Both the position numbers and the translations under genes were made by a program. Under the pieces are notes generated by a model that was not told the DNA's origin, did not search any database, and saw only the letters and a program-made list of their open reading frames with translations. Shown here in pieces: positions 15,536 to 34,420 of a stretch of DNA of 34,420 nt (position 1 is the first letter of the stretch; each line of letters begins with the position of its first letter). Source of the stretch: an uncultured Pseudomonadales bacterium (GTDB taxonomy: Bacteria; Pseudomonadota; Gammaproteobacteria; Pseudomonadales; Pseudohongiellaceae); NCBI GenBank assembly GCA_905478195.1, contig CAJQHM010000137.1, positions 1 to 34,420 of the forward strand, in the 5' to 3' direction.

Positions 15536-15566
15536 TGGCGATACGATAAAATTACAGGCGGTAATC

Positions 15567-16904: not shown

Positions 16905-16938
16905 ATGCTCCTCAAAACAGAACAAAAGCACAGAAACA

Positions 16939-19949: not shown

Positions 19950-20756
19950 CTAGAGTACATCGCCGAAGGCCTGCTTGATCTTCATGAATAGCCATCCACC
20001 GAAGAAATAGGTGATCAACGACACCGGAATAATAATTTGTAGATAGATAAAGTGAACCTGACCCTGCAAGACGATCTCGCGATAGAGGCTGACGAAGCTG
20101 TGCATCGGGTTTAATAAAAACAGGTTTCTCACATCTTCATTCTGTAACATGGTTATCGGGTAGATGATCGGCGTGAGGAAAAACCAGACCGTCACGCCCA
20201 GAGCGACTAACTGTTGAAGGTCTCGCAGAAACACGCTGAGTGCAGAGAGTATCGAAACCAAACCTAGGGCGAAGAGAAACTGAAAGAAAAAAATGAATGG
20301 CAGATAGATCCACATCCAGTTCAGATATCCCTGAGTTGCCAGATACAACAGCAGAATGCCGAAGCCAATGGCATGTGTTAAGTAGGGAATGACAGTGCCC
20401 ACATAGGGAATAATCTGCACCGGAAATTTTACTTTCGTAATCAGGGGCGCCTTCTCCAAAAGCAGGCCGGTCGATTTGGAGATTGAATCGGCGAAGGCGA
20501 ACCAAGGCAGATAGCCTACCATCATGAACACGACGAAGGTCGTCTCGCCGAAACCCTCGACCGATCGAATCTGAAAGATATAACTAAAAACGAAGGAATA
20601 GATGATGATGTGAATGACGGGCGTGAGGATAAGCCAAAGGAAGCCTCCAATCGAAGCTGTAAATTGGACGAGGAAATCCTGCCTGGAAAAATTATGAAAG
20701 AGTCGGTAATTGGCGAAGGGGGTTAGCAGCCATTCACGCAGTATTGTCAGCAGCAT
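19950..20756 (-). CDS. wzm: Polysaccharide ABC exporter permease, Wzm type
   Basis: A 268-aa ABC-2 family permease with about six membrane helices (for example TPVIHIIIYSFVFSYIF and VTVWFFLTPIIYPITML). The signature stretch FFLTPIIYP...NEDVRNLFLLNPMHSFVSLYREIVLQG is diagnostic for Wzm/TagG-type polysaccharide exporters. An amphipathic interface helix is likely at the N-terminus (LREWLLTPFANYRLFHNFSRQDF), followed by the QFTASIGGFLWLILTP core. It forms the export channel with the downstream Wzt. Its start is 147 bp from the divergent PIG-L gene. Confidence 0.92.
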   Translation of the reverse strand: MLLTILREWLLTPFANYRLFHNFSRQDFLVQFTASIGGFLWLILTPVIHIIIYSFVFSYIFQIRSVEGFGETTFVVFMMVGYLPWFAFADSISKSTGLLLEKAPLITKVKFPVQIIPYVGTVIPYLTHAIGFGILLLYLATQGYLNWMWIYLPFIFFFQFLFALGLVSILSALSVFLRDLQQLVALGVTVWFFLTPIIYPITMLQNEDVRNLFLLNPMHSFVSLYREIVLQGQVHFIYLQIIIPVSLITYFFGGWLFMKIKQAFGDVL

Positions 20757-20851
20757 TCCCGATCCATTGTCGTGTTTCTATCGATGGTAGTGAGACTGCG
20801 AATTTAAGCACGAATCGCCTGAAAAGACTAAAAAATAGTGCCGTAAACCCT

Positions 20852-20857
20852 TATAAT
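20852..20857 (+). promoter_or_regulatory. Possible -10 element for the PIG-L gene
   Basis: A perfect TATAAT lies 46 bases before ATG 20903, in the gap divergent from wzm. No good -35 is seen. It supports the shorter start of the PIG-L gene, because the 5'-extended reading frame would run across it. Confidence 0.4.
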
Positions 20858-20902
20858 CAGAGCTTCCGCAATCCCAGTCACGCTGCACTATACTGCCCTG
20901 CT

Positions 20903-21643
20903 ATGTCAAAAACTGAATTGAATCCAGAACACAGGCTCATCCCTTTCGAGACCTCGGAGTTACCAGCGGGCCCCTGGCTGGTTTTCGCGCCACACGCCGA
21001 CGACGAGACCTATGGCATGGCGGGTAGCTTGCTAAAAGCCTCGGAGGCTGGCATCGCGACCCACCTGGTAGTGATGACCGATGGTGCCCTGGGCGGCAGC
21101 GCGGCGGACCTAGTAGACACCCGGCAACAGGAGGTTCAGGCTGCGGCTAAACTGCTCGGTATAACCAGCCTCGACAGCTGGCAGGAGCCCGATCGCGGCC
21201 TCGTATATAGTGAAGCCTCAGTGAGCAAAATTGCGCAGAAGATTAACAGTCTCGGCGCTGCCAGTGTCTTCTTTCCGGGGCCCCTAGAGCTACACCCGGA
21301 TCATCGTGTCACGGCACTGCTAGTTTGGGCAGCTATTCAGCAATTAAGCAAAGAGTCTCTTTCAGTGAACGCGTATTCCTACGAGATCGGTGTACAGAAC
21401 CCGGTCAACGTGCTCATCGATATTACCGAGCAGCGGCCGCGCAAGGAACAGGCCATGACGATTTATGCGAGCCAGAACGATGAAAATAATTACGAGGAAT
21501 TGGTACTGTCCCTGGACAAGGGACGCACCTTCACACTGCCGGCGAATGTCAGTCACGCAGAAGGCTTTTACCGCTACTCGGAAGAGCAACTGGCCACGTC
21601 GCTCAGAGCAGTTACACACGAAATCATCGAGTTGTACTTCTAA
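20903..21643 (+). CDS. PIG-L/LmbE family zinc-dependent deacetylase
   Basis: A 246-aa LmbE-like N-acetylglucosaminyl deacetylase. The zinc-binding signature PHADDET (His31, Asp34) lies near the N-terminus and the second part HPDHR (131-135, His134) supplies the third ligand. The strand-loop LVVMTDGALGG is also typical. The frame is open 53 codons further upstream, but ATG 20903 puts the first strand (GPWLVFAPHADDE) at the expected distance from the start. Members remove N-acetyl groups from sugar precursors or glycans. Lying next to Wzm/Wzt, it may tailor the exported glycan, although the exact substrate cannot be read from the sequence. It is convergent with the 177-aa gene, 31 bp away. Confidence 0.88.
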   Translation: MSKTELNPEHRLIPFETSELPAGPWLVFAPHADDETYGMAGSLLKASEAGIATHLVVMTDGALGGSAADLVDTRQQEVQAAAKLLGITSLDSWQEPDRGLVYSEASVSKIAQKINSLGAASVFFPGPLELHPDHRVTALLVWAAIQQLSKESLSVNAYSYEIGVQNPVNVLIDITEQRPRKEQAMTIYASQNDENNYEELVLSLDKGRTFTLPANVSHAEGFYRYSEEQLATSLRAVTHEIIELYF

Positions 21644-21674: not shown

Positions 21675-22208
21675 TTAGTGCAGTGGGTTTGAACTTCCGG
21701 GAGCAGGCGACTCATCCATCCAAGTCGGCCAGATCGCGAGTGGCCAGTCCGCGCGTCGCCACTGCGCGTGCAAGATACCCAGCCATTGGCGCAGTTGTTT
21801 GGAGACTACCGTCAGCGTCGCCATTCCCTCGTCGTCCTGCCCCGCTACCGCACCTAAATCACGCTTGAATAAGAGCACCAGCGTGCCCTCCGGGCTCAGC
21901 GTAATATCCACTTCCGGAATAAGCCAACTTATTGACGACGAGACAGCCCTCACGGGCTGTTCCGGTGCAAGTTCGGCCTCGGCAGCTTGCTGCGCAAAGC
22001 CCTGTAAGAGGCTACTCGTTGGCGCTCCCTTCTCACCAGGGGTTGGCGACTGTTTCTCGATGAGGCCGAGCAGATGCGAAATTATCTGTGTCAGCAGGCG
22101 CTGGGTTAACCATAGAACGATGGTTTGGTTGTCTTCGCTCTCGCCAGCGAGGCGAATACGGTCTTCGACTTCGACGTACTCGGTAGTGATGCGCTCTAGA
22201 TTGATCAT
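21675..22208 (-). CDS. Conserved-looking protein of unknown function, downstream of tolC
   Basis: A 177-aa soluble protein without signal peptide or membrane segment. I do not recognise the family. The N-terminal block INLERITTEYVEVEDRIRLAGE is followed by VLWLTQRLLTQIISHLLGLIE (amphipathic helix), a low-complexity Pro/Ala/Gln region (about 53-84) and a second structured block with ISWLIPEVDITLSPEGTLVLLFKRD. The C-terminus contains several tryptophans (QWLGILHAQWRRADWPLAIWPTW). It starts only 9 bp after the tolC stop and is certainly in the same transcript, so a role linked to the type I secretion operon is possible. No function is assigned. Confidence 0.75.
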   Translation of the reverse strand: MINLERITTEYVEVEDRIRLAGESEDNQTIVLWLTQRLLTQIISHLLGLIEKQSPTPGEKGAPTSSLLQGFAQQAAEAELAPEQPVRAVSSSISWLIPEVDITLSPEGTLVLLFKRDLGAVAGQDDEGMATLTVVSKQLRQWLGILHAQWRRADWPLAIWPTWMDESPAPGSSNPLH

Positions 22209-22217
22209 AGGGGGAGA

Positions 22218-23591
22218 TTAACGCGCAGGCGCTTCCAGCCAGGACCCGACTTCGAGCATGTCGTCGGCGGTGAGTAGCCCTGTTTCGCGCTTCAGCATGA
22301 GGAGAAATTTGATGTGATCGTAGCGAGCTTGCTGCAGGTCCCGCTCCGCGCGGTACTGATCGCGAAGGGCATTCAGCACGTCTACACTGGTTACCGCGCC
22401 GAGTTCGAAGCCGCGTTGCATGGCCGTAGAGGCAAGGGCGGTGGAATCGACAAGCTTCTGTGCCGCCTCGATCAGTGTTTCTGCGGCCTGCACTTGGATA
22501 TAGGCAATTCTGACCTGTTCGTTGGCTTCCAGCTGAACCTGTCGCAATTCGTTTTCCGCGATACTGTGCTGACTCAGAGCCTCGCGGACCGCGGCTTTGT
22601 TGGAGCCGCCTGCATAGAGCGGGATTGTAACGTTCAGCCCGACATAGGTATTGTCGGTTCTGTTTAGCGGCATGTTGTCGAAACCCACATTCGAATCCTG
22701 TCGCTGTACGACGAAATTTACTTGCGGCATATACGCACCGCGTTGTTCATCCACGCGTTTGTCCGCGGCTTCAACGGCAAACTCCCGTGCCACAATCTGA
22801 TGGTTGTTCTTCTCTGCCTGGCTAACCCAATAATTAATGCTGTTTTCGAGAGGAGGTATGGCCGCTTCTTCGCGTAGGCTGGAAAGCTCACCTGCCGTAA
22901 CGCCGCTAGCGGAGCGCAATGCCTCGCGTCTCATGGCGAGTTCACTCTGCAGATTCAACTGCTCCGCCTCGACAGCGGCAGCGCTCGCCCGTGCCTGGTA
23001 CAGATCTGTTATCTGTGCCAGCTGTCTGTCATAAAGGCTCTGAATCTGGTTCAGCTGATTTTGCACGGCCTCAAGTTCGGCGGCAATCGAGTCGAGAGCG
23101 TCCTGTGCTTGCAGCACGTTGAAGTAGCGCTCCGCCACGTCGGTTAACAGGTTTGAGAGAGCGCCATAGTATTCGGCTTCGATCTGATCTTCGACAAGGT
23201 AGGCGGCGCTTCGCGCAGCATAGGCCTGCCAGTTAAACAGTACCTGCGAGAGTTGAACCGAATAGCGTCGTCCATCGAATTTCTGTAGCTGACTGGTATC
23301 GGAAATCATTCTCCTGTTGTCAGACACGTTGGCATTGGCGCTCAATTGTGGCAGCAACCTGCCGTTGGCAGCCTGCTTGCGCGCCGACCCGATATTCAGC
23401 GATTCTGCAGCGATCTGTAGGGTGGGACTGTAGTTGATCGCGGCGGTAAAAAAATCTTCCAGCGTACGGCCGATAGAATTTTCCGCTCTTGCTATGGCTG
23501 TATTGTTAAGCTCTGGAAGACCATCGGCAGCCATAGTGCCATGGGCATGGCTGATGCTAATGATAAGCAGCAATAAAAGATTTTTACGCAT
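22218..23591 (-). CDS. tolC: TolC-family outer-membrane channel of the type I secretion system
   Basis: A 457-aa outer-membrane efflux protein. The signal peptide runs to about residue 21 (...HAHGTMAADG). Two OEP repeats of long coiled-coil helices follow, with barrel strands such as ANVSDNRRM and NFVVQRQDSNVGFDN and the conserved GLNVTIPLYAGGSNKAAVREA. The tail GAVTSVDVLNALRDQYRAERDLQQARYDHIKFLLMLKRETGLL is typical of TolC/PrtF. It follows the hlyD-type gene by 5 bp in an operon and would complete the trans-envelope conduit with it and the ABC protein. Confidence 0.93.
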   Translation of the reverse strand: MRKNLLLLLIISISHAHGTMAADGLPELNNTAIARAENSIGRTLEDFFTAAINYSPTLQIAAESLNIGSARKQAANGRLLPQLSANANVSDNRRMISDTSQLQKFDGRRYSVQLSQVLFNWQAYAARSAAYLVEDQIEAEYYGALSNLLTDVAERYFNVLQAQDALDSIAAELEAVQNQLNQIQSLYDRQLAQITDLYQARASAAAVEAEQLNLQSELAMRREALRSASGVTAGELSSLREEAAIPPLENSINYWVSQAEKNNHQIVAREFAVEAADKRVDEQRGAYMPQVNFVVQRQDSNVGFDNMPLNRTDNTYVGLNVTIPLYAGGSNKAAVREALSQHSIAENELRQVQLEANEQVRIAYIQVQAAETLIEAAQKLVDSTALASTAMQRGFELGAVTSVDVLNALRDQYRAERDLQQARYDHIKFLLMLKRETGLLTADDMLEVGSWLEAPAR

Positions 23592-23596
23592 AACAG

Positions 23597-25102
23597 TTAG
23601 TCTTCAGTGAAGCTGCGGGCCAATGCATTGGAGAAAGGCTTAAATAAATACTGCAGCAGCGTGCGTGAGCCAGTAGCAATGAATACCTCTGCTGGCATGC
23701 CCGGCAGTAACTCGAGATCACCGAGATCTGCCATGCCCTCGGGCGACACTTCAATTCGAGCAAGATAATGCGTTAAGCCGGTATTCTGATCTTGGATGGC
23801 ATCGGCAGAGAGGCTCAGCAGCGAGCCAACAATCGTCGGAGTGCGGTTGCCAAAGCTCGAGAAACGAATAGTTGCTTCTTGCCCTTCGTAGACGCGGTCT
23901 ATGTCGAGCGGAGAGACCTGCGCTTCGAGAATCAGTTCCTCGGTGAGCGGGACGATTTCGGCGATTACTGTGCCTGGGCCGATAACGCCGCCTTCGGTGT
24001 GTACCTGCATACCGTTAATCACGCCTGCAACCGGTGCGCGCACGGTAGTGCGGCTCACGATATCTTGCAGTGCTGTGCCGCGTTCCTGTGCATCTTTGAG
24101 TCGAGTTTGTACCTCGCCAAGCTCATTTACTACTTCGTTTTGGAATTCTCGATTTAACTGGAGTATCTGTAAGCGAGTCTCGCCTATCTGCACTTCGGTC
24201 GAGGCACTGGTCGCTGACAGGTCAGCCGCCTCGCCTTGGTAGCTTGCCAGATTGCGTTCAACCTGACGCAGGCGCGCCTTGTCTGAGAAGCCTTCATCGA
24301 GCAGCGCACGGGTGTCTTCGAGCTCGTCCGCAAAGGACTTGGCGAGCGCGATTTTGCTGTCTTTTAGCGCAGACAGGCCAACGAGCTTGGACTTGAGTTG
24401 GTCGATACGCTGCTCCAGCACTTCGATGCTGCCTTCGCGCGACGCCTTGCGCGCCTCAAAAATGGATGTCTGAGAGGCTATTTCCTCCGCTGCGTTTTCG
24501 CTAGTCAGACTGGCAGGATAAATTATCTGAGTTAGCTCATCGCGCTCGGCCAATAGGCGCGCTTCGCGTGCATGCAGGGCGACTAGCTGCGAGTTAGCGA
24601 TCTCGAGCTGCGCCAGCGGCTGTGTATCGTCCATCTCGAGGAGCGGCTCGCCCGCCTCCACTACGTCACCATTCTGCGCGAGTATCGAACTTACTAAGCC
24701 GCCCTCTAAATGCTGCACGGCTTTCTTATACGTCTTAACGGTAACCTGTCCCGGCGCGTGTGCGGCGCCGTCAAGAGGTGCAATTGCCGCCCAGCCGCCA
24801 AACACGACAAACACGAGAATAAAAACAGAAAGCCCGACGCGGCGCGGCATCTCCATGCTGGTCTCGACAAGATCATCGGCGCCCGCCGCCTGCGGCTTGG
24901 CCTGCCGCGTTGGCAAGATGGGCTTGGCAGCCGACTCTGCTCTGGCAGTTGCCGCATCGTCCACCGCCGAGGGCTTGATCGGTTGACCTGCGGGCATTTT
25001 GGCCACCGGCACGCGGGCAAGCGCTTGCTTATTGGTCGAAGCGGTTGCTTCGTTGTCTTGGCCGTTCTTGTTTTCGTCGTCCACGGGATCTCTCGTTTGC
25101 AA
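23597..25102 (-). CDS. hlyD: Type I secretion membrane-fusion protein (HlyD/PrtE family)
   Basis: A 501-aa periplasmic adaptor linking the ABC protein to TolC. There is one membrane helix at about 89-109 (VGLSVFILVFVVFGGWAAIAPL). The lipoyl half-motif follows (GQVTVKTYKKAVQHLEGGLV), then a long alpha-helical hairpin (about 145-330), the second lipoyl half (RTTVRAPVAGVINGMQVHTEGGVIGPG) and the beta-barrel (RFSSFGNRTPTIVGSL). The cytoplasmic N-terminus of ~85 residues is long and rich in Ala, Pro and Lys. The start is uncertain: TTG at 25102 or GTG at 25084 (GAGAG upstream); there is no ATG, and an in-frame stop lies just upstream. A 160-bp non-coding gap separates it from the ABC gene. Confidence 0.92.
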   Translation of the reverse strand: MQTRDPVDDENKNGQDNEATASTNKQALARVPVAKMPAGQPIKPSAVDDAATARAESAAKPILPTRQAKPQAAGADDLVETSMEMPRRVGLSVFILVFVVFGGWAAIAPLDGAAHAPGQVTVKTYKKAVQHLEGGLVSSILAQNGDVVEAGEPLLEMDDTQPLAQLEIANSQLVALHAREARLLAERDELTQIIYPASLTSENAAEEIASQTSIFEARKASREGSIEVLEQRIDQLKSKLVGLSALKDSKIALAKSFADELEDTRALLDEGFSDKARLRQVERNLASYQGEAADLSATSASTEVQIGETRLQILQLNREFQNEVVNELGEVQTRLKDAQERGTALQDIVSRTTVRAPVAGVINGMQVHTEGGVIGPGTVIAEIVPLTEELILEAQVSPLDIDRVYEGQEATIRFSSFGNRTPTIVGSLLSLSADAIQDQNTGLTHYLARIEVSPEGMADLGDLELLPGMPAEVFIATGSRTLLQYLFKPFSNALARSFTED

Positions 25103-25262
25103 TGCCTGCTGCCCAATAAATCAAGCGGCTGGCTGTCTCTATGAATTCAAAAAGCGGACACGTCGTGTGCCTGCCTCTGGTCTAGTTGTTCTAAGTCAAG
25201 CATCTCTTCTTGTCTTGCGCAGCTGTGCAACTCTTACGCGGCGATGTAACGAAACTCTGAGC

Positions 25263-26981
25263 CTAGGCGGGTCTAAGCGCAGGCTTTTTGTCCTGCGGTG
25301 CTGACAGCGCTGCGAGCACTTGATCGCGCGGACCGAAGTGAGAGGCGGCGCCGTCGCGCATGACCAAAATTTTGTCGACACACTGCAGCACCATGGTGCG
25401 GTGCGTAATGATAATAACCGTTGCGCCTTCTGCCTTAACGCGTTGTATCGCCTGAACAAGCTCGCGCTCGCCTTGATCATCGAGGTTCGAGTTTGGCTCG
25501 TCTAAAACTAGATATTTGGGTGAGCCGTATATCGCGCGGGCGAGACCGATACGCTGCCGCTGACCGCCCGACAAAATACCGCCCGATCCACCGATGACAG
25601 TGTCATAGCCTTGGGGCAAATGAAGTATTAAGCCGTGAACGCCGGCTGTCTTAGCCGCCTCGACTACTTTGTCGGGGTCGACATCGCCGAAGCGGCAAAT
25701 GTTCTCAGAAATTGAGCCGTCGAAAAGTTCGATGTCCTGCGGCAGGTAGCCAACATAGGGACCAAGCTCGGCACGATCCCACGTAAAAATGTCTGCGCCG
25801 TCTAGACGGACCTTGCCGCTGTAAGTTGGCCAAATACCGAGAAGCGCGCGCGCGAGACACGACTTACCCGAGGCGCTCGGACCCACGATGCCAAGCGCTT
25901 CGCCTGCATCGAGTTCCATGTTTACGCCGCGCACTACGATGTTCTTTGAGCCGGGTGGCACAACCATCACCTGTTCGGCCGACAATTTACCGGTTGGCGC
26001 CGGAAGAGACATGGTGTCTGCGTCTTTCGGAATTTGATTGAGCAGCTCACCGAGACGATCGTATTGGCCGCGAGCGAGCGTAAAGCCCTTCCAAGTGCCT
26101 ACCAGCATATCAATCGGCGCAAGCGCCCTGCCGAGCAGCAAAGATCCTGCGATCATCATACCGGGTGAGATTTCTTGACGCAGGGCCAGCAGTGCGCCTA
26201 GCCCGAGCAGTAAAGACTGCATTACCATGCGGAAAGTTTTTGACAGGCTTTGCAGTAAGCCCGCGGCCCGACTCGCGTCGGTTTGCAAGGTAAGCACCCC
26301 ATCGAAGCGCTTCTCTTGACGGTGGCGAAGATCGTCCGCCATACCCATCGCAGCAATAACTTCTGAATTCTTTAACGTGCCGTTAACCTGATTGCTAATC
26401 CAGTTTGCCTGAGAGTTGGCTTCTTGCAGCTTCTTACTTGTTACCTTTTCGGTCGTGTAGGCTAGGGCGATCATGACAATACCGGCAAAAATTGCTGCAT
26501 AGCCGAAGGTCGGGTGGAACATAAACATCACGAAAACGTAGATCGGGAACCAAGGCGCATCAAAAAAGGCGAACAGGCCATTGCCTGTGAGAAATTGGCG
26601 TAAGCTCGAAAGATCGCTTAGCGGCTGTGAGTTGCTTACCGAGCCGCCGGTTAATAGCGCGCGCTTGAACGTGGCGTCAGAGATCCGACGCCGCAGATTT
26701 TTTTCTATGCGATTACTCGCCGCAATCAGAATCATAGAGCGAACCCACTCGAACCCTCCCAATGCAGCGGTCAGCGCGACCATGAGCAGTGTCAGCATAG
26801 CGAGCGTCGAGTAACTTCCGGACGACACCACACGATCGTAAACCTGCAACATGTAAATTACAGGCACGAGCATTAAAAGGTTCACTGCAGCGCTAAAAAA
26901 TCCGGCGTAAATAAAGTAACGTTTGACGTCGGTAAAGGCCGCTGCGAGTTCTGGGTATTTATTTTTTTTCTGCGAGCTCAT
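25263..26981 (-). CDS. prtD: Type I secretion ABC transporter (PrtD/AprD/RsaD type)
   Basis: A 572-aa half-transporter. Six membrane helices occupy 20-310 (FFSAAVNLLMLVPVIYMLQVYDRVVSSGS... is characteristic of PrtD). There is no N-terminal C39 peptidase or C39-like domain, as in exporters of RTX proteases and S-layer proteins. The nucleotide-binding domain has Walker A GPSASGKS (about 367), signature LSGGQRQRIG, Walker B YLVLDEPNSNLD and H-loop THR. It energises one-step export of substrates carrying C-terminal signals through the HlyD and TolC partners downstream. The S-layer-like gene at 33744 is the best candidate substrate in view. The Crp-like gene lies 148 bp upstream in the same direction. 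Confidence 0.95.
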   Translation of the reverse strand: MSSQKKNKYPELAAAFTDVKRYFIYAGFFSAAVNLLMLVPVIYMLQVYDRVVSSGSYSTLAMLTLLMVALTAALGGFEWVRSMILIAASNRIEKNLRRRISDATFKRALLTGGSVSNSQPLSDLSSLRQFLTGNGLFAFFDAPWFPIYVFVMFMFHPTFGYAAIFAGIVMIALAYTTEKVTSKKLQEANSQANWISNQVNGTLKNSEVIAAMGMADDLRHRQEKRFDGVLTLQTDASRAAGLLQSLSKTFRMVMQSLLLGLGALLALRQEISPGMMIAGSLLLGRALAPIDMLVGTWKGFTLARGQYDRLGELLNQIPKDADTMSLPAPTGKLSAEQVMVVPPGSKNIVVRGVNMELDAGEALGIVGPSASGKSCLARALLGIWPTYSGKVRLDGADIFTWDRAELGPYVGYLPQDIELFDGSISENICRFGDVDPDKVVEAAKTAGVHGLILHLPQGYDTVIGGSGGILSGGQRQRIGLARAIYGSPKYLVLDEPNSNLDDQGERELVQAIQRVKAEGATVIIITHRTMVLQCVDKILVMRDGAASHFGPRDQVLAALSAPQDKKPALRPA

Positions 26982-27028
26982 AGTCTGTAATCTTAGTTTG
27001 CTTACTGTAATTGTTAGCTTCGTGTCTT

Positions 27029-27074
27029 AACCTAGCGATAACCTTAGTCGAGCTAATCGAGCTCTACCTAGGTT
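27029..27074. repeat. Nested inverted repeats between the Crp-like gene and the T1SS operon
   Basis: AACCTAG (27029-27035) pairs with CTAGGTT (27068-27074), and inside it GAGCT (27050-27054) pairs with AGCTC (27060-27064). A separate pair, AACGCC/GGCGTT (27095-27100 and 27116-27121), lies just after the Crp-like stop. No T-tract follows either, so these could be weak terminators, operators or chance. Confidence 0.3.
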
Positions 27075-27128
27075 GGGGCGCGCCGCTGTATTTCAACGCC
27101 CTACTGTTCTAACTCGGCGTTAGGGTGA

Positions 27129-27827
27129 CTAAAGCTCCTGCTTACCTTCGGCGTAGCCGCGCAAAACGCCAACCTTATTAACCACAAGTAAGCTGGTGCC
27201 ATCTCGTTTAACTATCTGCCGATTCTGCAACGACTGAAATACACGGGTGACCGTCTCGCGGCTTATGTTTAACATTATTGCAATCTCCATGTGAGTGGGC
27301 GGATTGCGAATCTGTGCTTCTTCTTTCTCCTTATCTTTCTCGGGTACCAGCATCCAAAGCTGGCAGCACACCCGCTGAGCGATGTTGGGCAGGCCGAGCA
27401 ATGACCGCTGGAAAGTCATTTTACGGACATGGCCTGCGATCTTTGCGCTGATTGTCGCAAACAGCTCGGGGTGCATTTTGAGCAACGTCTGCATTGAATT
27501 TAGTGGGATACTGACAATAACCGAGGGCGTTAGAGCCATGACAAACTCAGGCTGCGCTCCTCCATCAAATAGGCACAGTTCGCCGCAAAATTCGCCAGGT
27601 TCGACGAAATAGAGCCCAACTTCGCGGCCATCTATTGTAAAGTCGACACCCTGCAACCGGCCTTCGAACAGGAAGCAAATTTGCTCCTCGTTTTGCCCGG
27701 CGTTAAGTACAATTGCTCGTCGAGCAGCTCTACGCACGCTGCTCTGCCCCGCGATCCCTTCGAGAGTCGCGTAGGGCAGTCCGCTTAAAAGCGGGAAGGT
27801 CTTGAGCAGTTGCGGTGTTACCACCAT
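27129..27827 (-). CDS. Crp/Fnr-family transcription regulator with altered nucleotide pocket
   Basis: A 232-aa regulator. Residues 1-120 form a cyclic-nucleotide-binding-like beta-roll (GQNEEQICFLFEGRLQGV..., EPGEFCGELCLFDGG). In the phosphate-binding cassette the E. coli Crp segment GELGLFEEGQERSAWV aligns with GELCLFDGGAQPEFVM (82-97): the phosphate-binding Arg82 and Ser83 become Pro and Glu. There is no Fnr-type N-terminal cysteine cluster. A dimerisation helix follows, then a winged HTH with recognition helix ISRETVTRVFQSL (188-200). That helix keeps the Arg-Glu-Arg contacts of Crp and predicts TGTGA-type half-sites, and such boxes are present nearby. The ligand is unknown. It diverges from the FecR-cyclase unit. 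Confidence 0.9.
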   Translation of the reverse strand: MVVTPQLLKTFPLLSGLPYATLEGIAGQSSVRRAARRAIVLNAGQNEEQICFLFEGRLQGVDFTIDGREVGLYFVEPGEFCGELCLFDGGAQPEFVMALTPSVIVSIPLNSMQTLLKMHPELFATISAKIAGHVRKMTFQRSLLGLPNIAQRVCCQLWMLVPEKDKEKEEAQIRNPPTHMEIAIMLNISRETVTRVFQSLQNRQIVKRDGTSLLVVNKVGVLRGYAEGKQEL

Positions 27828-27975
27828 AAAACGCGATCCCTCGGGGCGCAGCCATACTACTAGTTAATCAAAATGCATGCGCCGACTAATACAGCGGCAG
27901 CGGAGGCATTAACTTAAGACAAGGGCGCGGTCCCGCCGGATGGAAAAATTCTTATTACCTTAAAGATGCAGCCGC

Positions 27976-27981
27976 ATTATA
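27976..27981 (-). promoter_or_regulatory. Leftward -10 element for the Crp-like gene
   Basis: ATTATA on the plus strand reads TATAAT leftward, 149 bases ahead of the regulator's start. The -35 position is poor (TTTTTA). Transcription would begin near 27969, which puts the centre of the Crp-type box (28029.5) at about -60.5. That is the class I activator spacing and would suit a positive feedback loop. Confidence 0.45.
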
Positions 27982-28021
27982 GGCACGGGAAGGTTCGGTA
28001 AAAAGGGCGACAAGCGTCTTA

Positions 28022-28037
28022 TGTGACCGCAATCACC
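28022..28037. promoter_or_regulatory. Crp-type operator in the divergent promoter region
   Basis: TGTGACCGCAATCACC matches the Crp consensus TGTGA-N6-TCACA with one end mismatch. Its centre is 41 bases ahead of the start predicted from TTATCT (28058-28063), the class II activator position for the FecR-cyclase unit. It is also about 60.5 bases from the leftward start. Eleven contiguous bases, CAATCAC and TGTGACC flanks included, are nearly identical to the box at 33599. Confidence 0.75.
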
Positions 28038-28160
28038 CCGTTTTGTACATCCTTGAATTATCTTTAACCTCCATCAGGGATTTGTTTGCAGTAAATGAGA
28101 AACCCAATGCAACGCAGTCAACATACAAGCGCGATAACACCCCGAGGCCGAAGGGTTGGC

Positions 28161-29594
28161 ATGCGCGCGTCTTGGCTACGCGTACCTTCTCTCTCGCTGC
28201 TAGCGTTCCTGCTCTCTTTAAGCCCCCTTCACGCGACCGCCGAAGCCGACATATCTAACCAAACGAGCGTCCGTAAAGTGGGCGAGGTGAGCCTCGTGCT
28301 GGGAAGGGCGTATATTGAGCGGGCTAATGGGCGTGATCTAATCGAGACAGGTACCGAGATCCGTGTCGGTGATAGAGTCTTTACCGAGGGCGGCGGTCAT
28401 GTGCACGTGCGGTTTATCGATGACGCGCTGGTTAGCGTCCGGCCGAGTAGTACGCTCGATGTAGTGCGTTACGACTATGATGCGTCAAAGCCGCAAAATT
28501 CTGCCGTCAAGTTTGAGCTTAGCGAAGGGGTGGCTCGAGCAATTTCCGGCGACGCAGCAAAATCAGCCCGCGAACGCTTTCGTATGAATACGCCAATCGC
28601 GGCCATAGGCGTCCGTGGTACAGACTTTGTAGTAAGTGCTAACTCACGTTCAACGCGAGCATTGGTAAACGAAGGCGCGATAATCATGGCGCCTTATTCA
28701 AGCGAATGCAGGAGTGAAGCGCTGGGGCCTTGCGCGGTGGACGCGGTCGAATTGAGCCAGAACACGCTACAGGTGCTCGAGCTTGGAAGTGGTAGTGCAG
28801 TCCCGCGCTTTGTCGTCGCCTCTAGCGAGAGCGCACTCAGCGAAATCGAAAGCTCGAATACCAATGACACCAACGCAGTCGATGTTCAGGTTGCCTCCGA
28901 CGACAATACCGGCACGCTCGACTCTAACGAAATCTATTTAGAGAGCGTTGCCACTACAAAAATTAAATCAGAAGTCGCGGCGGCCGAGAAAATCAGCGGC
29001 CAGTCTCCAAATGATCAGCCAGCGAATGATTTGTCAGAGGCCCCGGTGGTTCTCGCTGACTTCACCCCAACTGACGCCCTTACGGCTGTGTCCACGGCCG
29101 GTGATCAACTCGTCTGGGGCCGATGGTCTTCGCCTGGCGCACCAAGCTTGCTGTCTCTAAGCTTGGGTGAGGCGCGTGAGGGGCGAGACGTCACGGTCTC
29201 TTCAACCAGCGGTTTCATACTCTACCGCAGCGAGCCAAGCGGCGCGCGGGTGGAATCTGGGTTGGGCGTAGTCAGATTAGATTTGAGCGCAGCCGAAGCA
29301 TTCTACGATTCGAGCAACGGCATCGTTGCCATGCGGGTGGCGGGTGGAAACCTCGAGCTAGACTTTGTCGATCGGGCTTTCGCGACCGAACTGAATCTCG
29401 ATCACGCGAGCACCGGTGCGATTGATTTCATGGCAAACGGTGCGATCGCCGACGGCGGCTATCTGCTGTTAAGAGAGGACTCAAAGATCCTGTCTGGCGC
29501 TGTAGCGACAGACGGCACAGAGGCGGGCTATTTCTTCGAACAGCAGTTAGACACCGGCCGCATTCAAGGCATTACGCTGTGGGGCGCGCAATAA
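28161..29594 (+). CDS. FecR-domain periplasmic protein
   Basis: A 477-aa secreted protein. ATG 28161 is preferred: AAGGG lies five bases upstream and the product begins with a clean signal peptide (MRASWLRVPSLSLLAFLL..., cleavage near LHATA). ATG 28095 would add 22 residues ahead of it and has no well-spaced ribosome site. The FecR domain follows (about 45-190 of the short form): GRAYIERANGRDLIETGTEIRVGDRVFTEGGGHVHVRFIDDALVSVRP, then RFRMNTPIAAIGVRGTDFVV. The remaining ~280 residues are unassigned, acidic and beta-rich. FecR domains usually sense or transmit envelope signals. The stop overlaps the cyclase start (TAATG), so the two are coupled and may act together on the periplasmic side. Confidence 0.87.
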   Translation: MRASWLRVPSLSLLAFLLSLSPLHATAEADISNQTSVRKVGEVSLVLGRAYIERANGRDLIETGTEIRVGDRVFTEGGGHVHVRFIDDALVSVRPSSTLDVVRYDYDASKPQNSAVKFELSEGVARAISGDAAKSARERFRMNTPIAAIGVRGTDFVVSANSRSTRALVNEGAIIMAPYSSECRSEALGPCAVDAVELSQNTLQVLELGSGSAVPRFVVASSESALSEIESSNTNDTNAVDVQVASDDNTGTLDSNEIYLESVATTKIKSEVAAAEKISGQSPNDQPANDLSEAPVVLADFTPTDALTAVSTAGDQLVWGRWSSPGAPSLLSLSLGEAREGRDVTVSSTSGFILYRSEPSGARVESGLGVVRLDLSAAEAFYDSSNGIVAMRVAGGNLELDFVDRAFATELNLDHASTGAIDFMANGAIADGGYLLLREDSKILSGAVATDGTEAGYFFEQQLDTGRIQGITLWGAQ

Positions 29595-31690
29595 TGAGCA
29601 CGCCGCGAATGACCTTTCCTCGACGCCTGGCGAGCCTGCCGGTTATCGGCGGCCTGCTCTCGATGGCGCCCATTCGCGGGCGTGTCGCCATGCTCGTTGC
29701 TGCTGCGATTGCCACTTACGCGCTACTTGCGGTTTCTGGGCCAAACAGCCCGCTTGCTAGCCTCGAAGAGCGTTTGGGCACTTTAGGGTGGACGCTCGCG
29801 CCCGAGACAAACGCCGAATCGCGTATCGTCATCGTCGCGATAGATGAACAAAGTATCGACGAGGTCGGGCCATGGCCATGGCCGCGCGAGACGATGGCCG
29901 AACTCACTCGGGCGATTGACGCTGCGGGCGCTCAACTGCAAATTCACGACATTGTTTATGCCGATGCGAAAGACGGCGATGCACAGCTCGCTGCGGCGCT
30001 TTCAAATTCGCGCGGCGCGGTTATCTCACAGGTGCCGGTTTTAGACATCAACCAGGCCCCTGGTCTTGCACCCGAGATCATTCGTGCAGGCCAGATGATG
30101 GGGAGCCTCGCAGGTATCCAATGCGCAGAGGGCGCGGGCTTAATGTCTACCGCCAGCTTCCTTGCACCGCACGCCGGATTCAACGCGGTCGCTAAAGGGC
30201 ACATTGCACCGGTGATTAACGGCGATGGCTCGATCTCGAAACAGCCTGCTCTAGTCTGTGTTGATGGCCAAGCCTATCCAGCGTTGGCGCTGTCTGTCTT
30301 GCTCGAAGCGACGGGCGCGGGTATCGATATGGAAGGCGTCAACAGCGCAAAAATTGTCGCTAATAGCAGCCCAATGGGCGCAGCTCAAACACTCACGCTG
30401 GATTCCTATCCCGGCCTCGCCGTGCCACTAGATGCCGATGGCAATCTGCGCATTTCGTATCGCCGCGCCCCCGAAAGTTATTTGACCATTTCTGCGGCAG
30501 ATATTTTATTTGGAAGGGCGGGCACCGAACTCTTAGATAAAGCGTGGGTGTTAGTTGGCGCAACCGCATTTGGGCTAGGCGACGTTGTTCCAACTCCTTA
30601 CAGTGGGGCGACACCGGGTGTCGAGCTGCAGGCGCGCATACTCGGCAGTCTGCTTGACGTTGCAGTGCCCTACGCACCTAACAGTGCCGCAGCGATTCAA
30701 GTTTTCATTGCAGGTCTCTTTGCGCTAGCGCTATTGGCCATGGCGTCACGAATGACCGGTCGCCTGGGTACGCTACTTTTGCCTAGCGCAGCGTTTGCGC
30801 TTCCCCTACTTTCTCTGGTCTTGCATGCCCAGGCACTGCGCAGCGCCGATGTTTGGCTCGGCTGGATGCCGTCGGCAATCTATGCGGTGATAACGAGCGG
30901 ACTGCTTTTCGTTCTAGAACAGGCGCGAACGCGCAGTCAAAGAGACCGAGTCTTCAATAATTTGGCGAGCTATCTGCCAAGCGAAGTGGCTGAAGAAATC
31001 GCCTACAGCCTGCCGAGTTCTAATGTTGTCGCGGAGCGCAGAGATTTCACTCTTGTAAGCGCCGACCTGCGTAACTTCTCGACCTTCAGCGAGGCGCGGA
31101 CTCCAGAAGAGTCTGCAGCCGTATTGCACTTCTTCTTCCAGAAAGCGGCTGAAATTATCGAAGCGCACGGCGGCAAAGTGCACGAATACAAAGGCGACAG
31201 TCTGCTAGCGCTATGGGATACCCAGAGTGCCGAAGCTGCACTAAACGCGCTTAATGCGGCGCAGAAAATGGTCGCGGAAATCGATCATATTTCGCTGAGT
31301 GCCAACACACCTTACGGGCTCGAGCCGCTTGCACTAGGCGTTGGTATCGAGCAGGGCGCTGCGTTGATCGGCTCGATCGGGCCTGCTCACCGGCGCACAC
31401 ATACTCTGTTGGGTGACACCGTGACAATTGCGCTACGCATCCAAGAAATGACCGCGCAGCTCGCGCAGCCTATCCTGCTTGGCGAACGCGCGGCGCGTCA
31501 GCTCGATGCTGAGTTACTCCAGTCGCAAGGCAGTTATTTGTTGCAGGGCTTAACGATCCCCCATGTGCTGTTTGCGCCTCAGCCAGACGAGGGCAAACTA
31601 GCTTCGCTAACCGAGTCCCTTGGCGACTTCGCTTCTGGCGAAGGCGGACAGCCTAGGCTCAAAGTGTTAGCCGGCGGGCGTCGATCGTAA
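29594..31690 (+). CDS. CHASE2-domain class III nucleotide cyclase
   Basis: A 698-aa membrane-bound sensor cyclase; ATG 29594 overlaps the FecR stop by one base. There is one helix near 31-49, a periplasmic CHASE2 domain at about 55-360 (IVIVAIDEQSIDEVGPWPWPRETMAEL is its hallmark), then three helices (about 366-445). The cytoplasmic cyclase domain (483-640) has metal aspartates Asp491 (SADLRNF) and Asp535 (KGDSLLAL). Substrate and transition-state positions deviate: the adenine-selecting Lys is Glu531, as in guanylate cyclases; the second selector is Thr602 (RRTHTLLGD), as in class IIIb; the transition-state Asn is Thr611, while Arg615 is kept. The product could be cAMP, cGMP or another nucleotide; activity is inferred. 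Confidence 0.9.
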   Translation: MSTPRMTFPRRLASLPVIGGLLSMAPIRGRVAMLVAAAIATYALLAVSGPNSPLASLEERLGTLGWTLAPETNAESRIVIVAIDEQSIDEVGPWPWPRETMAELTRAIDAAGAQLQIHDIVYADAKDGDAQLAAALSNSRGAVISQVPVLDINQAPGLAPEIIRAGQMMGSLAGIQCAEGAGLMSTASFLAPHAGFNAVAKGHIAPVINGDGSISKQPALVCVDGQAYPALALSVLLEATGAGIDMEGVNSAKIVANSSPMGAAQTLTLDSYPGLAVPLDADGNLRISYRRAPESYLTISAADILFGRAGTELLDKAWVLVGATAFGLGDVVPTPYSGATPGVELQARILGSLLDVAVPYAPNSAAAIQVFIAGLFALALLAMASRMTGRLGTLLLPSAAFALPLLSLVLHAQALRSADVWLGWMPSAIYAVITSGLLFVLEQARTRSQRDRVFNNLASYLPSEVAEEIAYSLPSSNVVAERRDFTLVSADLRNFSTFSEARTPEESAAVLHFFFQKAAEIIEAHGGKVHEYKGDSLLALWDTQSAEAALNALNAAQKMVAEIDHISLSANTPYGLEPLALGVGIEQGAALIGSIGPAHRRTHTLLGDTVTIALRIQEMTAQLAQPILLGERAARQLDAELLQSQGSYLLQGLTIPHVLFAPQPDEGKLASLTESLGDFASGEGGQPRLKVLAGGRRS

Positions 31691-31781
31691 ACCAGCCAGC
31701 ACGAAGGCAGACATCCACAGGACAAACTTTCCTTGACCTATTACCTTACGAGTGCAAAGGCTGTGTTAGTCTTGGCTTACG

Positions 31782-31810
31782 TTGACGTCCAAAAAATAAA
31801 ATTGTATTTT
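31782..31810 (+). promoter_or_regulatory. Sigma-70-like promoter for the TPR/barrel gene
   Basis: TTGACG (31782-31787), a 17-base A-rich spacer and TATTTT (31805-31810) form a reasonable promoter in the 139-bp gap after the cyclase. Transcription would start near 31817, giving a very short leader of about 13 nt. No Crp-type box is seen here. Confidence 0.5.
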
Positions 31811-31829
31811 CTGCGAGTTTGTTGAACGC

Positions 31830-33254
31830 ATGCTGCCACTGTTGGTCCCAGACGTGAGCCTCCCGAAGGGGAGAATCACCCACTTTCTTGTTTCAGGTGT
31901 TGTGGCATGTGGACTCCTAATCGCAAGCCATGCCAAAGCTCAAGCCTTGCCAACAGAGGCTTTAATCTGCCCCGACCTCGCTAGCTACTATTCCGAAATG
32001 AATTTTACAGACGCAGCCAGCGACGAACCCGCGCGCTGGGCTGCATTGACGACGACGCTGGCCGAATTACAATCACGTTGCCTGAGGTCTTCAGAATATT
32101 ACGCGCTTCTCGGTGCTGCGCAGCTCAACAGCGGACAGCTGGATGTCGCTTCAGAGTCACTCGAACGAGCCCTTCTGCTTGATCCAAAAAACGGCTCGGC
32201 GCAGATTGACTACGCGGAAGCGCTGTTTGCAGCGGGACAACTATTCCCAGCGCTACAGCTCAACGAGACGATCCTCGGTAGAGAAGATTTGCCCGCCGAA
32301 TTGAGGGAGACGCTGACGCAGCGCGAGGCCGATTGGCGCAAAAACACCAAACAACATATCCTCCAACTCGATCTGCAAGCCGGCTACGATAACAATCTCA
32401 ATAGCGCACCCGGCGCTGACCAGATTACGCTAACACTGTCTGGCGAGCCCGTGCTGCTGTCTCTCAACACCGATTTGCAGCCACAGGAAGGCGCTTTTAC
32501 CAACGCGCGCCTCAGCAGTACACAATTGACACTTACCGCCAACGGACAACACAGTTGGACAAACCAAGTCCGTGGGCGGCTTAGTCAGGACACGCGATCC
32601 GATTTGCTGCAGTTTGACTCGCGCTATGCATTGATTAAACCAACGCGTCGCCGAACGCTGCAGTGGGAGGCCGGTGCAAGCTCGCTCTTCTTTGGCGGCA
32701 GCGCGCTCTACACCTCGGCGCAAACGCGTCTGAGCTACCAGCCTAATACTAACAAGCGCTGCGCCCCGGTCTACGAAATAGCGAGCCAGTATCAGCGCTT
32801 TCACAGCCAGAACACGTTAGACGCATGGGAGAGCAAAGCCACACTGGGCGCTAGCTGCGTCGCAGGCGAGAATACCAACAACCCGCTTAGGATTGGCTTT
32901 GATGGCGGCTATATTAGCAATCGCGCCCTCGACTCAACGCGCCCCGGCGACGATCGCGATGGGTGGCAGGTGAACGTCCGCGCGCAGCGCGCATTGTTTG
33001 GCGGCGAGCTGTCCGCACAGGCGAGTTATACCCGCCTGGAGGACGCTGGCAGCTACAGCCCAATACTCGTAAACGGCGCCGCGAGGTGGCAGGAGCGTAA
33101 CCAATTTTTGATACAACACCGCACGCCGATGCGGCTGGGCACTCGAAGCGCCTTATTCCTTGTTAATTTTTACCACCAAGATCAGTCGAGTAATATCGAG
33201 CTGTTCGAACTGAGCGACACCGCCGTCGAGCTCGGGTTCAGTATAGCTCTCTAA
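31830..33254 (+). CDS. TPR-containing outer-membrane beta-barrel protein
   Basis: A 474-aa secreted protein. A signal sequence is visible (THFLVSGVVACGLLIASHAKAQA, cleavage near residue 38). The N-terminal part has TPR-like helices (YYALLGAAQLNSGQLDVASESLERALLLDPKNGSAQIDYAEALFAAGQL). From about residue 170 it turns into alternating amphipathic strands ending in an aromatic-containing C-terminus (TAVELGFSIAL), an outer-membrane barrel of 12-16 strands. The junction motif LDLQAGYDNNLNSAPGADQI is common in TPR-barrel proteins related to surface-lipoprotein assembly modifiers. Its position after FecR and CHASE2 genes and before the S-layer-like gene suggests a role in surface assembly. Molecular function is unknown. 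Confidence 0.82.
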   Translation: MLPLLVPDVSLPKGRITHFLVSGVVACGLLIASHAKAQALPTEALICPDLASYYSEMNFTDAASDEPARWAALTTTLAELQSRCLRSSEYYALLGAAQLNSGQLDVASESLERALLLDPKNGSAQIDYAEALFAAGQLFPALQLNETILGREDLPAELRETLTQREADWRKNTKQHILQLDLQAGYDNNLNSAPGADQITLTLSGEPVLLSLNTDLQPQEGAFTNARLSSTQLTLTANGQHSWTNQVRGRLSQDTRSDLLQFDSRYALIKPTRRRTLQWEAGASSLFFGGSALYTSAQTRLSYQPNTNKRCAPVYEIASQYQRFHSQNTLDAWESKATLGASCVAGENTNNPLRIGFDGGYISNRALDSTRPGDDRDGWQVNVRAQRALFGGELSAQASYTRLEDAGSYSPILVNGAARWQERNQFLIQHRTPMRLGTRSALFLVNFYHQDQSSNIELFELSDTAVELGFSIAL

Positions 33255-33460
33255 CGGTCTGTATTTTCGATATTTTACTGAAGAATCCCGTTCAGGCTCA
33301 ACACCTTGCCACTAGCCCTGTAATTTAAACTCGCGACGCTAAAAACGTAGCCTGCTACCGTAACCGCAGTAATCTACCCATTTTTGCCATCATTTTGTGC
33401 CACTGCACGTCAAACTACACAACCAAATTTACTATTAAAACCGCAACTTACATGCGCGAC

Positions 33461-33509
33461 TCGAAGTATTACTTCGATACAAAAAGTTGTACTTTTGCTA
33501 AAGTTTTAG
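33461..33509. repeat. Three consecutive palindromes upstream of the S-layer-like gene
   Basis: In order: TCGAAGTA-T-TACTTCGA (33461-33477, perfect 8-bp arms), AAAAGT-TGT-ACTTTT (33482-33496, perfect 6-bp arms) and CTAAA-GT-TTTAG (33498-33509, perfect 5-bp arms). They are spaced a few bases apart. The first has the size and symmetry of a dimeric repressor or activator operator. None is followed by a T-tract, so terminators are unlikely. Confidence 0.6.
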
Positions 33510-33598
33510 TATCCTTTGCCTGATATCTGGTAGCGGTTGTGGGTTCTATCGACCTCAGGCCTGATGTAACGGCGTTTGCCGAATTATTCGCTAGTGCG

Positions 33599-33614
33599 TG
33601 TGACCTCAATCACA
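33599..33614. promoter_or_regulatory. Perfect Crp-type operator upstream of the S-layer-like gene
   Basis: TGTGACCTCAATCACA is a perfect TGTGA-N6-TCACA palindrome, differing from the box at 28022 at only two of 16 bases. Its centre lies about 42 bases ahead of the start predicted from the -10 candidate TATGCT (33637-33642), again the class II spacing. It is 130 bases ahead of the start codon. Confidence 0.8.
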
Positions 33615-33636
33615 GGCCCTAGTGTGTCAACTGGCT

Positions 33637-33642
33637 TATGCT
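33637..33642 (+). promoter_or_regulatory. Possible -10 element for the S-layer-like gene
   Basis: TATGCT lies just downstream of the Crp-type box; CTTAAT at 33641-33646 is an alternative. No -35 is visible, as expected where an activator overlaps that position. Transcription would begin near 33649, leaving a leader of about 95 nt. Confidence 0.4.
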
Positions 33643-33743
33643 TAATTTAACGATGGAAAACCGCCGGCCTAATTTTGTGGGACGGGCCGGAAGCAATCGT
33701 AACCAACTATAATTTGAAATCGATCTCAAGGAGATACACCACA

Positions 33744-34420
33744 ATGGCTTTTATTACAGCTGAAACACGAAGCGAGCTGGTTGCACTGTCAGTCGCAATG
33801 CTCAAGCAAGCTCCAAGCAACACACTACTTGAAGAGCTTATCGGAATCTCAGTTGCCGGCGGCACACTCGCTGACGCAGCTGATCACATCGCTAAGACTG
33901 CAGCTTTCAAGGCTGAATACCCTAGCTTCCAGACCGCTGCTCAGTACGCAGCTGAAATATTTGACGCCTTCACTGTTGGTGGCACAGTAACTGCTGCTCT
34001 CCGCACTGAGGTAATCGACCTGGCTACTGGCCTACTAACTAGCGGCCAATACACAAAAGCCAGTCTTGCATCCGCTATCTCTAGCTTCTTGTTGGCGCCG
34101 GCGGCCCTGGAGAATGAAGGGCTAGCTGACATCGCGCAGGCTCACCAGAACCGTTCAGCCGCCGCTGAATACTATGTCATAACCAAGGAACTTGGAGGGA
34201 AAACTGACGCAGAGCTTGCAGCAGTGATCTCCTCTGTAACTAGCGACGCAGCAACTCTCACAGCCGCAAAAGCAGATGCAGATGCTGTTGCAGTTGCGGT
34301 AGCAGTTGTCCCCGGCAAGACTTTTACGCTCACTACAGGTTTGGACAACAAAACTCTGGGTGCTGGCGCTGACCAGGCTTTCGCCACAGACTCAACAACT
34401 GCGGCTGACGACACGTTCAA
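33744..34420 (+). CDS. S-layer-like type I-secreted surface protein, 3'-truncated by the window
   Basis: The frame is open from ATG 33744 (AAGGAGA ten bases upstream) to the window end: 225 codons, unfinished. There is no signal peptide and no cysteine. Residues 1-185 are helical and Ala-rich (MAFITAETRSELVALSVAM...). At about 190 the sequence changes to a Thr/Gly/Asp-rich stretch (GKTFTLTTGLDN, GAGADQAFATDS, TTAADDTF), the usual transition into S-layer beta repeats with the pattern FTLTTG.D...G...DTF. This layout is known from Caulobacter RsaA-like proteins exported by PrtD/HlyD systems. Alanine codons are mostly GCT and GCA, unlike the GCG/GCC-rich neighbours, as expected for very high expression. 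The C-terminal secretion signal and any calcium repeats lie outside the window. Confidence 0.8.
   Translation, partial: MAFITAETRSELVALSVAMLKQAPSNTLLEELIGISVAGGTLADAADHIAKTAAFKAEYPSFQTAAQYAAEIFDAFTVGGTVTAALRTEVIDLATGLLTSGQYTKASLASAISSFLLAPAALENEGLADIAQAHQNRSAAAEYYVITKELGGKTDAELAAVISSVTSDAATLTAAKADADAVAVAVAVVPGKTFTLTTGLDNKTLGAGADQAFATDSTTAADDTF

Follow-up and report, generated by a model that had tools for sequence, protein, structure and literature searches.

A putative S-layer production and control locus with a conserved CRP-type operator in the Pseudohongiellaceae

Comparative sequence analysis of a 34,420 bp stretch of DNA from an uncultured marine bacterium of the Pseudohongiellaceae (GenBank contig CAJQHM010000137.1; the whole stretch is hereafter called the window) suggests that the building of a crystalline surface coat of protein has its own control circuit. 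With a probability of roughly 0.7, the window carries a dedicated locus for the production and control of an S-layer protein, in which a type I secretion system (T1SS), control by a Crp-like regulator at a conserved operator, and a relay across the cell envelope are brought together. S-layers are among the most abundant proteins of the cells that bear them, and little is known of how Gram-negative bacteria keep S-layer synthesis in step with export and with assembly at the surface. Across this family of marine bacteria, and also in Oceanospirillum and Marinomonas, the conserved operator joins the locus-encoded regulator, the relay and the S-layer gene, so that feedback control of an S-layer becomes directly testable. 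The window makes up one whole contig of a source genome of 2.97 Mb in 141 contigs, and because it ends where the contig ends, the S-layer gene is cut after ~225 residues. A sequence-only reading of the window had listed the genes of the locus with their positions and strands, and all of them prove to lie where it had put them.

Conserved neighbourhood and operator of the S-layer gene

The relatives came from a sample of 99 genomes of the family, in which orthologs of the CHASE2-cyclase of the window were called at an identity of at least 46%; the list of cyclase-bearing genomes was compiled by hand, and 12 further genomes with matches at 31% identity or less were not counted. An ortholog was found in 68 of the 99 genomes, and all 68 regions were read. 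With only a 248-residue N-terminal piece of the S-layer protein as the query, the search detected S-layer genes in 49 of the 68 cyclase-bearing genomes and in none of the 31 others (Fisher p 9e-13, a value that is too small because the genomes are related); a fiftieth S-layer genome, G011, was detected only by a profile. Counts of neighbouring genes refer to loci with enough flanking sequence, include the window and three outgroup loci, and omit L014 and L005 (the latter a duplicate of L135), as do the operator-specificity tallies given below. Upstream of the cyclase gene, a crp-like gene lies on the opposite strand in 58/58 loci and a gene for a FecR-domain protein is present in 61/61. The T1SS genes are linked in 52/56 (PrtD), 52/56 (HlyD) and 51/55 (TolC) loci, and the TPR-barrel and S-layer genes are found on the same strand in 55/56 and 31/38, respectively. 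The missing T1SS genes are accounted for by the three outgroup loci and by L141, where the transporter is present and turned round, and the missing S-layer linkages by the outgroup loci, L136 (gene present, opposite strand), L128, L131 and L137.

Outside the family, the module occurs at 47-50% identity in named Oceanospirillum and Marinomonas genomes, and the contigs of Oceanospirillum sediminis, Marinomonas ostreistagni and M. atlantica that bear it also carry an S-layer gene of the same protein family, ~8-13 kb from the crp-like gene. Its position in Marinomonas is past PIG-L-like and Wzm/Wzt-like genes; in Oceanospirillum it immediately follows a TPR-barrel gene that is no longer with the cyclase. 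The sequence-only reading had looked to relatives for its own test, and in them the neighbourhood proves to be conserved far beyond chance. A wide spread across the class was considered and rejected, since only one of 369 class genomes was matched at E 1e-60, namely the window's own. Among distant CHASE2-cyclase loci, L018-L023 (mostly Bradyrhizobium) have a weak Crp-like open reading frame (ORF) just before the cyclase, with scores of 38-42 bits at 21-22% identity.

The second line of evidence is a predicted operator, identified by scanning upstream regions for the CRP-type pattern TGTGA-N6-TCACA. In its extended form the pattern occurs exactly twice in the window, both times on the + strand: as TGTGACCGCAATCACC at 28022..28037, in the region between the crp-like and fecR genes, and as TGTGACCTCAATCACA at 33599..33614, 130 bp upstream of the S-layer start codon. 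Chance was rejected as the origin of these sites, with 0.02 expected in the window and no perfect site in first-order shuffles of the S-layer regions. The looser pattern with one mismatch is unremarkable in the window alone (2 sites as against 0.69 expected, with 19 of 100 shuffles reaching 2), and it is therefore conservation that carries the case. Among linked S-layer genes, 43 of 45 upstream regions have a perfect site and one a site with a single mismatch; the shuffles predict 0.7 regions at one mismatch. The remaining region, in L141 of genome G073, is without a site, and a second S-layer copy of G073 on another contig has one. Overall, the operator stands at an S-layer gene in 49 of the 50 family genomes that possess one, a count to which G030, G075, G094 and G090 are added; this includes rearranged or unlinked S-layer genes in G030, G073, G075 and G094 (G090 has the normal arrangement). 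The S-layer genes of the three outgroup genomes all have a perfect site, 168-271 bp from the annotated start. The region between crp-like and fecR has a site with at most one mismatch in 60/60 genomes and in 4/5 more, that is in 64/65.

The two classes of site differ in a regular manner: the first base is other than T in 59 of 61 crp-like/fecR regions and is T in all 45 aligned S-layer sites, so that the autoregulatory site looks deliberately weaker. The inner operator bases are pyrimidine and purine in 61/61, and the bases flanking the operator are not conserved. In 1,078,694 bases of the loci there are 50 perfect extended sites, all at a few positions: 43 in S-layer promoters, four in the gap between the PrtD and Crp-like genes, two between crp-like and fecR, and one just past the TPR-barrel gene at a contig end. 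The whole genome from which the window comes has six perfect TGTGA-N6-TCACA sites including the S-layer one; the other five lie outside the listed ORFs, and one of these five fits the extended pattern. A further site at the S-layer position is seen beside a cut contig in L213, and an extra perfect but unextended one within the S-layer ORF of L212. Upstream of the S-layer genes of L099, L101, L134 and L143 the operator sits inside a longer palindrome of up to ~40 bases, which could form a hairpin.

The surface protein itself is an RsaA-type S-layer protein, as judged by profile comparison of its homologues. The ORF of the window (33744..34420, + strand) starts with an ATG at 33744 preceded by what appears, by eye, to be a good ribosome-binding sequence (ggag), and covers the N-terminal part. 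Taken alone, this fragment matched no Pfam or NCBIfam model, and hence its identity depends on relatives: it aligns with longer homologues at 33-58% identity, and a profile of 17 full-length homologues matched RsaA chains with E ~1e-136 to 1e-142 over profile positions 181-902 of 902. That profile was built on 17 of 29 full-length ORFs, those omitted being mostly longer or divergent; a second one, of the window fragment and more divergent members, matched RsaA with E ~1e-69 to 1e-76. The ORF and the S-layer assignment of the sequence-only reading thus stand, the former with the qualification just given, and its "S-layer-like" can be sharpened to RsaA-type. In neither profile search did the N-terminal ~180 positions align to the RsaA chains, in which the lipopolysaccharide-binding N-terminal domain is present, and the window's own gene covers just the first ~45 residues of the RsaA-homologous lattice domain. 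At least one GGxGxD (RTX) motif is present in 29 of 32 ORFs that are not cut by a contig end, Cys is absent from 28 of the 32, and Pfam HemolysinCabind scored above its cut-off in 2 of 5 scanned homologues. Complete proteins range from 723 to 1894 residues, except for a remnant of 180 residues in L101 (6370-6909), with an operator in front, that points to decay or a sequence error.

On the opposite strand lie the genes of the exporter. The PrtD-type ABC transporter (25263..26981, - strand) and the HlyD-type periplasmic adaptor (23597..25102, - strand) score well above their NCBIfam cut-offs (TIGR01842, 726.4 bits against 510.15; TIGR01843, 369.9 against 208.65), and the TolC-family outer membrane channel (22218..23591, - strand) is just below its own (TIGR01844, 222.3 against 225.15) and far above that of Pfam OEP (194.4 bits). 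The family models thus uphold the proposal of a PrtD/HlyD/TolC-type export system, and, from homology and position, this neighbouring pump probably exports the S-layer protein. A strong operator at the PrtD gene was sought and rejected: a site with at most one mismatch occurs in just 5 of 56 upstream regions, and the four perfect ones all belong to one subset, so that a place of the T1SS genes in the regulon is unsupported. The perfect operator between the Crp-like and PrtD genes is confined to L108, L109, L111 and L118, which suggests that the exporter joined the regulon in this subset. In L215 (G017) the TolC and PrtD genes are spread over several ORFs, by decay or sequence error.

Taken together, these observations lead to the following model. 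The Crp-like regulator (27129..27827, - strand; Pfam cNMP_binding and HTH_Crp_2) has the recognition helix SRETVTR, in which R190, E191 and R195 of the R-E-x-x-x-R pattern are each kept in 59/59 homologues, as in Escherichia coli CRP. It would bind the predicted operator before the S-layer gene and the weaker copy in the promoter shared with fecR, and from both sites would control the S-layer gene and its own sensory operon, as operator conservation and the recognition helix indicate. The link from regulator to S-layer drawn in the sequence-only reading thereby acquires a concrete form, a CRP-type operator that joins the regulator's own promoter region with the S-layer promoter. The sensory operon encodes a predicted periplasmic FecR-domain protein (28095..29594, + strand; Pfam FecR 47.3 bits), a CHASE2-class III nucleotide cyclase (29579..31690, + strand; CHASE2 135.6 and Guanylate_cyc 38.2 bits) and, close behind, a predicted outer-membrane protein with a TPR domain and a 14-stranded β-barrel (31830..33254, + strand; from a structure model and fold search). 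By analogy with the NsrA-CyaK-Clr pathway of Sinorhizobium, these three proteins would form an envelope-spanning relay that reports the state of the surface or of secretion inward.

Alternatives for the relay, the signal and the regulator

Several findings count against this model or against parts of it. No S-layer gene was detected in 18 of the 68 cyclase-bearing genomes, part of which is due to contig ends and to the short query. A T1SS of this type was not seen in the outgroup stretches that were read, no genome-wide search for one having been made there. The operator is absent from the S-layer-like fragment of G082 (at a contig end), from another 10 S-layer-like copies, paralogs or fragments, within the sequence that was read, and from the crp-like/fecR region of G052. 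Canonical CRP, matched in the window's own genome and in 78 of the 99 family genomes, could bind the same site. The transition-state Asn of class III cyclases is found in 0 of 64 cyclases (T 51, S 6, A 5, G 2), and the Arg-Ser pair that binds the cyclic nucleotide phosphate in CRP is absent from all 59 distinct homologues of the Crp-like protein, which have a conserved Q-P-E-[FY] instead; these catalytic and pocket changes would oppose a plain cyclic-nucleotide chain. The sequence-only reading therefore stands in part: the conserved neighbourhood, the RsaA-type protein, the exporter and the operator link hold, whereas its premise that Crp proteins answer to cyclic nucleotides is unsupported as worded, in view of the pocket and the cyclase, and its description of the locus as self-contained for one protein is too strong, given the genomes with no S-layer gene found, the outgroup stretches without a T1SS, and the linked genes outside its span that are described below.

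The best-surviving alternative concerns the TPR-barrel, is compatible with the model as a whole, and has in our estimation a little less than an even chance: the protein would be an outer-membrane assembly or export factor and not a sensor, either a Slam-like factor acting on protein, or one like BcsC, PgaA or PelB acting on a polysaccharide by which the S-layer is anchored. Its structure model has TPR helices and 14 long strands, an architecture of the Slam type (predicted local distance difference test, pLDDT, 74.8; predicted template modelling score 0.56). The best Foldseek matches are BcsC, PelB and PgaA, which are polysaccharide exporters with TPR domains, although the template modelling scores are low (0.28-0.37). 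In a profile set of 36 sequences (the window and 35 of 54 homologues) TPR_Slam matched 3 of the 36 weakly, with a best E of 0.0037, and SlipAM gave no match among the families listed (25 of 29). Furthermore, in Oceanospirillum the TPR-barrel gene adjoins the S-layer gene, away from the cyclase, and Wzm/Wzt and glycan genes are linked to the locus. A sensory role is favoured by the TPR-barrel gene being usually co-directional with the cyclase gene and close behind it, by the clustering of FecR and TPR genes with CHASE2 cyclases in Campylobacterota (PMC9239204, in the part of the text available) and by the Sinorhizobium outer-membrane barrel NsrA, which the available parts of PMC13001267 and PMC7529298 describe as the receptor for CHASE2-type cyclases feeding Clr. 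These are the closest precedents for an outer-membrane sensor in this locus, although the sensor and assembly roles appear equally possible.

Only slightly less credible, and likewise short of even odds, is the proposal that the Crp-like protein controls the S-layer without answering to the cyclase. The cyclase product would then act elsewhere, or the cyclase domain would be a non-catalytic receptor, and the Crp-like pocket would bind something else, or nothing. The replaced Arg-Ser pair and the missing transition-state Asn speak for it, as does a score of 72.7 bits against the NCBIfam CRP equivalog NF008732, with its cut-off of 266. In the alignment with E. coli CRP the Arg lies opposite a gap and the Ser opposite Pro93; Q92 is kept in 58/59, P93 in 57/59, E94 in 59/59 and the ribose-binding Glu in 57/59 homologues. 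The proposal is opposed by the strict linkage of the crp-like gene to the fecR-cyclase pair, which extends to the three outgroup genomes, and by the rest of the cyclase active site: the metal-binding D496 and D540 are kept in 64/64, the base-selecting E536 in 64/64 and Arg620 in 63/64, which suggests that nucleotide binding is still under selection. E536 is of the guanylate type and aligns with the corresponding Glu of Cya2 from Synechocystis; Cya2 is itself a guanylate cyclase with a CHASE2 domain, and in its variant E488K it is an adenylate cyclase (PMC5995499, from the portion of the source at hand). If active, the cyclase of the window would most likely make cyclic GMP (cGMP).

Ordinary cyclic AMP (cAMP)-CRP was rejected as the identity of the local regulator on account of the missing phosphate-binding pair. 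With that pair lost and the Asn absent, the step from cyclase to Crp-like protein, if real, is not the ordinary cAMP-CRP one; a plain cAMP chain seems unlikely, one of cGMP or another second messenger is possible, and the second-messenger step in general is weakly supported. The regulator also has three near-invariant cysteines, Cys51 (58/59), Cys81 (59/59) and Cys154 (59/59), and since Cys81 falls within the altered pocket segment a redox or metal role is possible. A more specific conjecture, which we regard as rather unlikely, is a private second-messenger circuit for the S-layer. In it the TPR-barrel and FecR proteins would sense export or assembly of the S-layer protein, the CHASE2 enzyme would give cGMP (by virtue of Glu536) or a different product (in keeping with the missing Asn), and the Crp-like protein, through its remodelled pocket (QPE[FY], Cys51, Cys81), would read this non-cAMP signal and act at the near-invariant operator. 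Were this correct, the circuit would be insulated from the cAMP-CRP system that coexists in most of these genomes. In any event, the Crp-like protein offers a test case for the ligands of a CRP pocket devoid of the Arg-Ser pair.

A third alternative, which we hold to be quite improbable, is that canonical cAMP-CRP reads the operators, that the S-layer belongs to its global regulon, and that the local Crp-like protein does something else. The operator agrees with the E. coli CRP consensus, and the window's own genome codes for a canonical CRP in which the Arg-Ser pair is present and the recognition helix is similar, as well as for other class III cyclases, three of which have the adenylate-type Lys together with the Asn (this count rests on three of four regions, C14 giving no useful alignment and C11 being split over two frames). 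Against it stand genomes in which the operator occurs without a match to this protein. At E 1e-30 canonical CRP was not found in 21 of the 99 genomes, including complete-looking single-contig ones. Among cyclase-bearing genomes 14 are without a match at this threshold, and seven of these (G031, G072, G073, G075, G079, G090 and G094) carry the operator at an S-layer gene. A scan for Crp-type helix-turn-helix (HTH) proteins covered five of the seven, the other two being only 88-90% complete; in these five, of which G072 and G079 are single contigs, no CRP-like protein other than the local one comes close to the query, and the other HTH proteins over the cut-off are of the Fnr or Lrp type, as labelled by eye. 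These genomes and the kept recognition helix make the local Crp-like protein the likely reader of the S-layer operator. Finally, that the genes are mere neighbours by shared ancestry with no regulatory chain, which gains something from the counts not being independent (the relatives come from one family and three outgroup genomes), is very improbable, as the operator follows the S-layer gene when this has moved away, with flanking bases not conserved, and as the parts stay close even where their order is rearranged, in the outgroups and L141.

Flanking genes

Next to the T1SS gene row, beyond the span of the sequence-only reading, lie genes for a Wzt-like ABC ATPase of polysaccharide export (18690..19922, - strand; Pfam ABC_tran 73.4 bits, with Wzt_C at 25.9, under its cut-off of 30.4), a Wzm-like ABC-2 permease (19950..20756, - strand; ABC2_membrane 34.1 bits) and a PIG-L-type deacetylase (20744..21643, + strand; PIG-L 81.3 bits). 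Of 52 loci that extend upstream by at least 8.4 kb, 24 have a Wzm-like gene; a PIG-L gene on the same strand is seen in 23 of 52 with sufficient flanking sequence, and a Wzt-like homologue near the module in 3/3 outgroup genomes. These conserved Wzm/Wzt-like and PIG-L-like genes, together with glycosyltransferase genes, probably belong to the locus. The T1SS row ends with a gene for a protein of 177 residues (21675..22208, - strand) that has no Pfam or NCBIfam match; it keeps this position in 23 of 52 loci, and in L088, L100, L103 and L125 a homologue lies beyond the S-layer gene. Its model, of moderate confidence (pLDDT 68.9), has two β-β-β-β-α units. Its profile comprised 21 sequences (the window and 20 of 25), and the best fold match, a PUR repeat, was rejected as not significant (E 0.015). 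Directly before the locus, at 8683-18674, stands a type II secretion cluster (secretin, GspE, F, G, H, K, M and others by Pfam), and a GspK-like gene of this secretion type adjoins the locus in L091 as well. No Rfam match to an RNA element was found in the window.

Relation to known systems

The Caulobacter rsa locus also has polysaccharide genes nearby, as does the locus described here; to our knowledge, it does not include genes of the Crp-like, FecR, CHASE2-cyclase or TPR-barrel kind. The likeness to RsaA and its exporter RsaD/RsaE/RsaF consists in the homologous lattice domain and in the PrtD-type exporter next door, whereas the N-terminal ~180 residues here do not align with RsaA; in Caulobacter, too, secretion genes are placed beside rsaA (PMC7821379, PMC11784148, in the parts available). 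Among Gammaproteobacteria, S-layers with an RsaA-like fold or homology are represented, in the same portions of these sources, by the "hauberk" proteins of methanotrophs, which have T1SS genes upstream (PMC11784148), and by Slr4 of Pseudoalteromonas, likewise from marine Gammaproteobacteria (PMC7821379). Slr4 differs in having a type II secretion locus as its neighbour. The main text of neither paper contains the word cyclase or CRP, and that of PMC11784148 is also without FecR.

On the signalling side, the NsrA-CyaK/CyaD-Clr pathway of Sinorhizobium meliloti resembles the proposed relay in its barrel receptor, CHASE2 cyclase and CRP-family regulator, the barrels being likened by description; the available portions of PMC13001267 and PMC7529298 mention no link to an S-layer or T1SS. 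Clr binds both cAMP and cGMP through Arg95 and Ser96, its cyclic nucleoside monophosphate-binding pair (PMC10127613, in the part available), and it is this pair that the Crp-like protein lacks. The cluster of FecR, CHASE2-adenylate cyclase, TPR and phosphodiesterase genes in Campylobacterota shares the first three kinds of gene, and the accessible text of PMC9239204 mentions no Crp-like, exporter or S-layer gene; a phosphodiesterase, which that cluster has, was not recognised among the Pfam matches of the window. Cya2 of Synechocystis (PDB: 2w01) has the same combination of CHASE2 and class III domains, with its residue 488 aligned with the Glu at 536, and differs in keeping the Asn, which is Thr here. 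Among the papers covered, literature searches found no work combining S-layer and CHASE2 and, in the portions of the records available, nothing on this system under S-layer with CRP, guanylate cyclase or type I secretion. The parts of the locus are thus of known kinds; their combination, and the operator that joins them, appear to be new.

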